Part shown: piece after piece, positions 44,413 through 45,036 of the stretch
Layout: each line of letters begins with the position of its first letter
Position numbering within the stretch: the first letter of the stretch is position 1
NCBI GenBank assembly: GCA_946699065.1
Contig: CAMPDV010000042.1
Coordinates: 620,001 to 684,000 of the forward strand
DNA length: 64,000 bases
DNA from: Loxodes magnus
Taxonomy: Eukaryota; Ciliophora; Karyorelictea; Loxodida; Loxodidae
Reading direction: 5' to 3'
Program-made: the position numbers and the translations under genes
Notes under the pieces: model-generated
What the model was told of the DNA's origin: nothing
Databases searched by the model: none
Seen by the model: only the letters and a program-made list of their open reading frames with translations

Positions 44413-45036
44413 ATGGATAAGAGTAATGAATATGATTATCTTTTAAAATTAATAATAATAGGAGATTCAAACACAGGCAAGTCGTGCTTACTTCATTAGT
44501 TCATCGATTAGAAATTTAAAAGGAATTCTACACATACAATAGGTGTCGAATTTGGATGTAAAAGCTTAGATTTAGGCGATGGAAGAGTAAAGCTTCAAAT
44601 ATGAGATACTGCAGGTTAAGAACGCTTTAGATCTGTTACTAGATCCTATTATAGAGGAGCTGCCGGAGCTTTAATTGTTTATGATATAACTAATGAAGAA
44701 TCATTCCGTAATTTAGAATCATGACTTACTGATGCAAGAACCCTAGCAAGGCCTGATTTAGTAATAATGGTAATTGGAAATAAATTTGATTTAAAAGATT
44801 TAAGAAAAGTTACTTTTCTTGATGCTAGTAAATTCTGTTAGGAAAACGAAGTTCAGTTTTTAGAAACTAGTGCTCTAAATGGAGAAAATGTATAAGAAGC
44901 TTTTTAAAAAATATCAAAAACCATTCTGCATAAGTTAAAGAGTGGCTCAATGGATCCTAATTCTTTACCTCCTTCTATCTAGCCAGGGTTACAAAAACCT
45001 GCATCGAGAAAATGCGAGAAGTGCTTGATATTTTAA
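44413..45036 (+). CDS. RAB4: Rab4-like small GTPase
   Basis: A 207-residue single-exon protein. G-motifs: GDSNTGKS (P-loop), WDTAGQERFRS (switch II), GNKFDLKD and [14 protein letters not shown]. The effector region and the C-terminal [15 protein letters not shown] track human RAB4A over its length. Rab4 recycles cargo from early endosomes. The frame ends KCEKCLIF followed by TAA, a CAAX-type CLIF terminus, and continues 22 non-conserved codons before the next TGA, so TAA is taken as the stop. If TGA were the stop, the prenylation cysteines would be internal. Provides the clearest demonstration that TGA is Trp and TAA/TAG are Gln here. Confidence 0.93.

Follow-up and report, generated by a model that had tools for sequence, protein, structure and literature searches.

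The Rab4-like gene and its neighbours

The window, meaning the whole 64,000-nucleotide stretch analysed here, comes from Loxodes magnus, a karyorelict ciliate listed under NCBI code 27, a source that lies within the range (karyorelicts, Condylostoma or a relative) given by the initial annotation. At 44413..45036 on the forward strand lies a single-exon gene for a Rab4-like GTPase, with the table 27 translation forming a full Rab that matches the Pfam Ras family (3e-59) and has Rab4B as its best PDB match (4.4e-72). Nine in-frame TAA, TAG or TGA codons are read as sense within this gene, ahead of a terminal TAA. Alignment of the translation, with stop-type codons masked as X, to the five top-scoring solved chains (four of Rab4 and one of Rab14) places TGA at 44602..44604 on the invariant Trp of the WDTAGQE motif in 5/5 chains and TGA at 44722..44724 on a second Trp, also in 5/5, with TAA at 44617..44619 on the Gln of WDTAGQE in 3/5 chains and on Leu in 2/5. 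The assignment of TGA 44602 to Trp and TAA 44617 to Gln made by the initial annotation is borne out, both codons being in frame and translating as such. TAG 44497 is aligned to Gln in 5/5 chains and TAG 44839 to Gln in 4/5 and Glu in 1/5, with non-Gln columns found at TAG 44509 (Asn/Lys), TAA 44893 (Glu), and TAA 44905 (Leu/Val). TAG 44509 is the codon that had been read as the Gln of FIDQK; it is present and in frame, however its aligned column holds Asn or Lys, not Gln. The gene closes on the CaaX-type end CLIF followed by TAA at 45034..45036 on the same strand, with the next in-frame TGA 21 codons further and a GC content of 12% over the 90 nt downstream. Judged from the DNA, this TAA probably terminates the gene, and the gene end of 45036 given previously is probably right.

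Ten coding stretches of the window together hold 114 TAA, 34 TAG, and 20 TGA in frame among 3494 codons, with nine matching Pfam families (Ras, DEAD helicase, TruB, LplA, WD40, sugar transporter, ankyrin kinase, RINGv, and DM10). Residue-column alignments among the window genes cover the Rab4-like gene, DDX47, and TruB, with LplA, MFS, and the EFHC1-like gene assessed by codon presence. The DDX47-like helicase (55321..56595, reverse strand) contains 15 in-frame sense TAA/TAG and no in-frame TGA, with codon 90 falling on Gln in 5/5 chains and codon 282 on Gln in the 4/4 chains that reach that site, and the TruB pseudouridine synthase (42975..43532, reverse strand; Pfam match) contains 8 TAA/TAG and one TGA, with codon 101 on Gln in 5/5 chains; the remaining TAA/TAG sites of both proteins are not aligned to Gln. 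In-frame codons are likewise present in an LplA-like lipoate ligase (23220..24086, reverse strand; 10 TAA/TAG and one TGA), in an MFS transporter (49421..50800, reverse strand; 10 TAA/TAG and 5 TGA), and in a protein with three DM10 domains (45511..47043, reverse strand; 35 TAA/TAG and one TGA), which we take to be EFHC1-like, all three matching Pfam. The proposal that conserved Trp and Gln columns carry these codons in further genes of the window is upheld for Gln columns at some sites of DDX47 and TruB, and for the presence of in-frame codons in LplA, MFS, and the EFHC1-like gene, but not for ATG5, where the candidate coding stretch (31559-31981) matched no Pfam family.

The coding signal of the MFS transporter stops at a TAA, at an end that has no homology anchor. 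A WD40 protein (20517..21584, reverse strand; 14 TAA/TAG and 4 TGA in frame; Pfam match) is followed by TGA, with its alignments to PDB chains too loose for column evidence. An ankyrin-repeat protein kinase (37872..39542, forward strand; 28 TAA/TAG and one TGA; Pfam match) continues across one 22-nt GT-AG intron at 39561-39582, as read by eye. At 41229..42119 on the reverse strand, a RING-variant domain and an AlgH-like (DUF179) domain share one reading frame (13 TAA/TAG and 5 TGA; Pfam match), a pairing that looks unusual.

Sense meanings and the tRNA genes

The assembly, searched over 705,730,643 bases, gave 150 listed Ras-family matches, each with at least one internal TAA, TAG, or TGA. Column statistics were drawn from the bodies of 60 Ras-family (Rab) genes of the same assembly (9673 codons), with each of the three codons tabulated by the aligned column on which it falls. 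The 56 TGAs lie on Trp columns (mean frequency 0.70), with a log-odds sum of 203 against 17 for the runner-up, Tyr. For the 229 TAAs and the 106 TAGs the best residue is Gln, with log-odds sums of 177.1 and 58.2 respectively; Gln is best by log-odds, yet in the mean column of either codon another residue is more frequent. Glu scores -72.5 at TAA columns and -53.9 at TAG columns. The WDTAGQE motif shows the same usage at single sites, with the Trp column of the 60 Rabs written as TGG in 35, TGA in 20, and other codons in 5, and the catalytic Gln column written as TAA in 40 and TAG in 13 (53/60), CAA in 3, CAG in 3, and another codon in 1. The codons are thus placed by column and not at random, with summed log-odds assigning TGA to Trp and TAA and TAG to Gln, in agreement with the initial annotation, which had described all three as sense codons at Trp and Gln columns. 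Within genes UAA and UAG are Gln and UGA is Trp. This sense use of all three codons in L. magnus is real and already published, and is re-derived here from raw sequence.

In-frame codons of this kind could also arise if the genes were pseudogenes, or if the codons were removed by RNA editing or splicing. Truncated copies do exist, among them HSP70 matches that cover part of the profile, however nothing was found in favour of this reading. The placement of the codons at Trp and Gln columns across the 60 aligned Rabs led us to reject both RNA editing and pseudogenes; the eRF1 gene itself contains in-frame stop-type codons, matching tRNA genes are present, and the transcriptome-based description of the L. 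magnus code backs it in the text available to us (PMC11441545). We regard this explanation as scarcely credible.

The suppressor tRNAs to which the initial annotation pointed were found as tRNA-Gln genes with TTA and CTA anticodons and as tRNA-Trp(CCA) genes. These were sought across the assembly by patterns of the anticodon arm, with the reversed pattern as a control. The tRNA-Gln pattern gave 476 matches, compared with 0 for its control, and the anticodons among the matches listed are TTA, CTA, TTG, and CTG. For tRNA-Trp there were 126 matches, compared with 2 for the control, with the anticodon CCA in every match listed; the pattern permitted TCA too. Three of the 126 were folded, of which an array copy (L177) has an anticodon stem of 4 bp, its top pair broken, and two copies on another contig (L178 and L179, C110) have stems of 5 bp. 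ARAGORN found no tRNA in the 64,000-nt window, and of the 63 matches from a tRNA family search the 30 examined as loci were tRNA-Lys and tRNA-Ala only. Published work describes a tRNA-Trp(CCA) with a 4-bp anticodon stem as a way of reading UGA, and the available text of PMC13092985 reports it from Loxodes; the stem is shortened in the same way here and nothing essential differs from what that text describes, with our short-stem copy coming from a long tandem array. Tandem arrays of tRNA-Trp(CCA) occupy G000:C67:482321-491198 and C148:157298-168941 (the range listed), with units of ~187 and ~241 bases, and a tRNA-Gln(CTA) gene lies in a 588-base repeat at G000:C130:557669-566516, with 16 copies listed.

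Codons at anchored gene ends

Proteins whose last residues are fixed offer a way of separating stop from sense without transcripts. Stops were assigned at loci where function or homology anchors the C-terminal residues, by reading the codon immediately after them. Summed over all families, 115 unambiguous anchored ends comprise 102 TGA, 13 TAA, and 0 TAG, with 9 ambiguous loci excluded; these ends are loci and not independent genes, many being paralogues and copies from HSP70 and actin arrays, some of them near-identical. Most come from the Ras family, for which 116 of the 150 listed matches were fetched. A C-terminal motif followed by TGA was found in 73/116, with 47 in frame (including 5 Ran-type ends, DEDL) and 26 after a frame shift, which we take for a short intron. 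In 11/116 TAA comes directly after the motif and at least 15 codons pass before any TGA (10 in frame and 1 shifted), the Rab4-like gene of the window (CLIF-TAA) being one of these cases, and in 0/116 was it followed by TAG without a nearby TGA. Eight further Ras-family genes are ambiguous, with TAA or TAG and TGA within 3 codons of one another (L042, L043, L062, L069, L090, L091, L097, and L119). The first 60 genes were read by eye before the regular expression for these ends was drawn up; 3 of the TAA ends lie in those 60 genes and 8 in the 56 later ones. Its matches in L072, L080, L087, L139, and L197, all TAA, were judged by eye to be chance and were left out, and 19/116 genes have no motif match, among them L064, which reads CQC-TGA by eye.

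Among actin and Arp loci (15 fetched of 96 matches), 13/15 end in TGA and 2/15 in TAA, and all 9 histone H4-type matches (9/9) end in TGA. The 13 HSP70 loci fetched of 68 matches comprise 5 with EEVD and 2 with HEDL, ending in TGA in 5/5 and 2/2 respectively, 5 without a fixed end, and one ambiguous locus (L153), in which TAA is followed by TGA and which was left out of the count. H4, EEVD and HEDL HSP70, Ran-type proteins, and conventional actins end in TGA only, with TAA ends confined to Rab-like and Arp loci. That the most conserved families use TGA alone counts against UAA as a working stop.

The published code for L. magnus, table 27 with UGA as the sole stop, would account for the TAA ends through introns that escaped notice, errors in the assembly, or paralogues in decay. 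The description itself, as far as its available text goes (PMC11441545), speaks for this, as do the 102 of 115 unambiguous anchored ends that are TGA; the 8 ambiguous Ras-family genes and L153 can be read just as well as Gln and then a UGA stop, and assembly errors at single loci are possible. Against it stand 11 Ras-family and 2 Arp genes in which TAA comes directly after a fixed C-terminus and an in-frame TGA is lacking over at least the next 15 codons or throughout the fetched stretch. The Arp1 tail aligns with solved Arp1 chains through their last residue, and the codon that follows is TAA. Close paralogues can end in either codon, with CNC-TGA in L054 compared with CNC-TAA in L067 (76% identity), and CCK-TGA in L057 compared with CCN-TAA in L079 (80% identity). 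The 90 nt past the 11 Ras-family TAA ends are 12-23% GC, inside the range for TGA ends, and in an off-frame control a motif followed by TAA without a near TGA occurred in 1/94 readings. Among the in-frame Ras TAA ends, 8/10 lack a GT-AG intron of 16-30 nt that could carry the frame to a nearby TGA; such an intron can be imagined for 2/10 (L067 and L108), compared with 7/38 TGA-ended genes by chance. The weakest TAA case is L118, with a TGA 15 codons past the TAA.

Codon usage ahead of the stops bears on the same question. At 48 in-frame prenyl-type anchored ends (38 TGA and 10 TAA), the last 20 codons contain 23 TAA, 28 TAG, and 33 CAA/CAG, compared with 275, 125, and 153 in the Rab bodies. 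Gln-TAA is depleted before stops relative to both TAG (p=0.0014) and CAA/CAG (p=0.0012), unlike Gln-TAG, which is undepleted relative to CAA/CAG (p=1.0). Ahead of the 10 in-frame TAA ends, the last 20 codons hold 0 TAA among 13 Gln codons (p=1.3e-4). With these observations, we consider it unlikely that UGA is the sole stop exactly as published. Table 28, the code of Condylostoma, in which UAA, UAG, and UGA all terminate as well, would share the occurrence of both UAA and UGA at fixed gene ends, however it was rejected, none of the 115 unambiguous anchored ends being TAG; TAG is undepleted before stops, and the source is Loxodes. We hold that code to be very improbable here.

UAA instead looks like a second working stop, as far as termination can be read from DNA. 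Our preferred reading, to which we give a probability of roughly 0.86 with the mechanism proposed below included, is that genes would stop mainly at UGA and less often at UAA, both also being sense codons, and that UAG would not be recognised as a stop. Because the 115 anchored ends include 13 TAA and 0 TAG, the code matches neither table 27 as written nor table 28. It is likely, if less so than that reading of the three codons, that the Loxodes code should be described as two stop-and-sense codons (UGA and UAA) and one fully reassigned codon (UAG), and not as a one-stop code. The data suggest that UAA and UAG, which encode the same amino acid, differ in their ability to stop, and that the published UGA-only rule mis-ends a fraction of genes. 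If this is true, perhaps 1/9 of genes end at UAA, and gene models built on UGA alone overrun the true ends.

The base following the stop is T or C at 9/10 TAA ends, compared with 59/275 sense TAAs. No claim is made from this, since T and C are seldom the first base of a codon in these genes in any case and follow 19/38 of the TGA ends. At the Rab TAA ends of L116 and L118 a second TAA comes directly after, as if it were a backup stop. The first eRF1-domain match (L009, reverse strand), which we take to be Pelota, has a coding signal that reaches TAA followed by CTT, a context common to three Rab TAA ends; L009 may end in this TAA, at a position not fixed by homology.

Release factor, proposed mechanism, and known codes

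The eRF1 genes, which we take to be L010 and L011, lie ~35 kb apart (G000:C196) and share an altered stop-codon pocket, in which RAQNIKS replaces TASNIKS; TGA closes both genes. L010 aligns with human eRF1 over its length and carries E55A, F56H, T58R, S60Q, and Y125F, as counted on the alignment. In a published table whose footnote cites private communication, human eRF1 Y125F retains in vitro release activities of 100/34/100% of wild type at UAA/UAG/UGA, and E55Q retains 75/35/80%. As the mutants tabulated at these two sites mainly lose UAG, E55A and Y125F may possibly make L. magnus eRF1 blind to UAG; site 55 is Ala here, compared with Gln in the tabulated human mutant, and F56H, T58R, and S60Q are further changes. 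If this is true, the L. magnus eRF1, through E55A and Y125F, would be nature's equivalent of the laboratory mutants that mainly lose UAG, giving a testable tie between two eRF1 residues and the stop-codon set of a living species.

In the mechanism we propose, tRNA-Gln species bearing UUA and CUA anticodons would decode UAA and UAG inside genes as Gln, and the multi-copy tRNA-Trp(CCA), its anticodon stem cut to 4 bp, would be the most likely decoder of UGA as Trp. Near the 3' end of the mRNA, eRF1 could bind the same codons, UGA mainly and UAA less, with UAG going unrecognised. Proximity of the poly(A) tail would let eRF1 win, an idea drawn from published work on Condylostoma. Under this model, eRF1 would set which codons can stop, and the end of the mRNA would set when.

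The available text on L. magnus (PMC11441545) describes a macronuclear assembly of 706 Mbp under NCBI table 27, with introns mostly of at most 25 nt (mode 17, mean 19.3 bp), UGA acting as Trp or stop by position and named as the only stop, and a depletion ahead of stops that affects UGA and UAA while sparing UAG. The one intron read in the window, by eye, is 22 nt long. Our analysis agrees with that text on UGA as Trp or stop and on the depletion pattern, but differs in that 13/115 anchored ends are TAA at the DNA level where UGA is described as the only stop. Of the features of table 27, UAA and UAG as Gln, UGA as Trp within genes, and termination at UGA are all found here, and UGA as the sole stop, judged from the DNA, is not. 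The Condylostoma magnum code (table 28), as set out in the available text of PMC4967479, resembles the present one in having all 64 codons capable of sense, stops set by position, and ends at UAA and UGA; UAG is also a stop there, whereas no UAG end was found here among 115. According to the available text of PMC12153298, all three codons are sense in Blastocrithidia too and UAA also terminates, as here, however UAR is Glu there (with UGA as Trp), whereas the UAR columns are Gln here. A literature search found no statement of UAA termination in Loxodes within the texts available. The abstract of Seah et al. 2022 reportedly states that UAA may serve as the stop codon for a small minority of transcripts in karyorelicts. 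What the present analysis contributes beyond the published code is a set of independent, homology-anchored numbers for UAA stops, and the link to eRF1.

Outside the anchored set, ~40 actin matches with near-equal scores are scattered across many contigs (G000:C266, C437, C524, C707, C711, C1162, and others), which suggests, as judged by scores alone, that they are recent copies.
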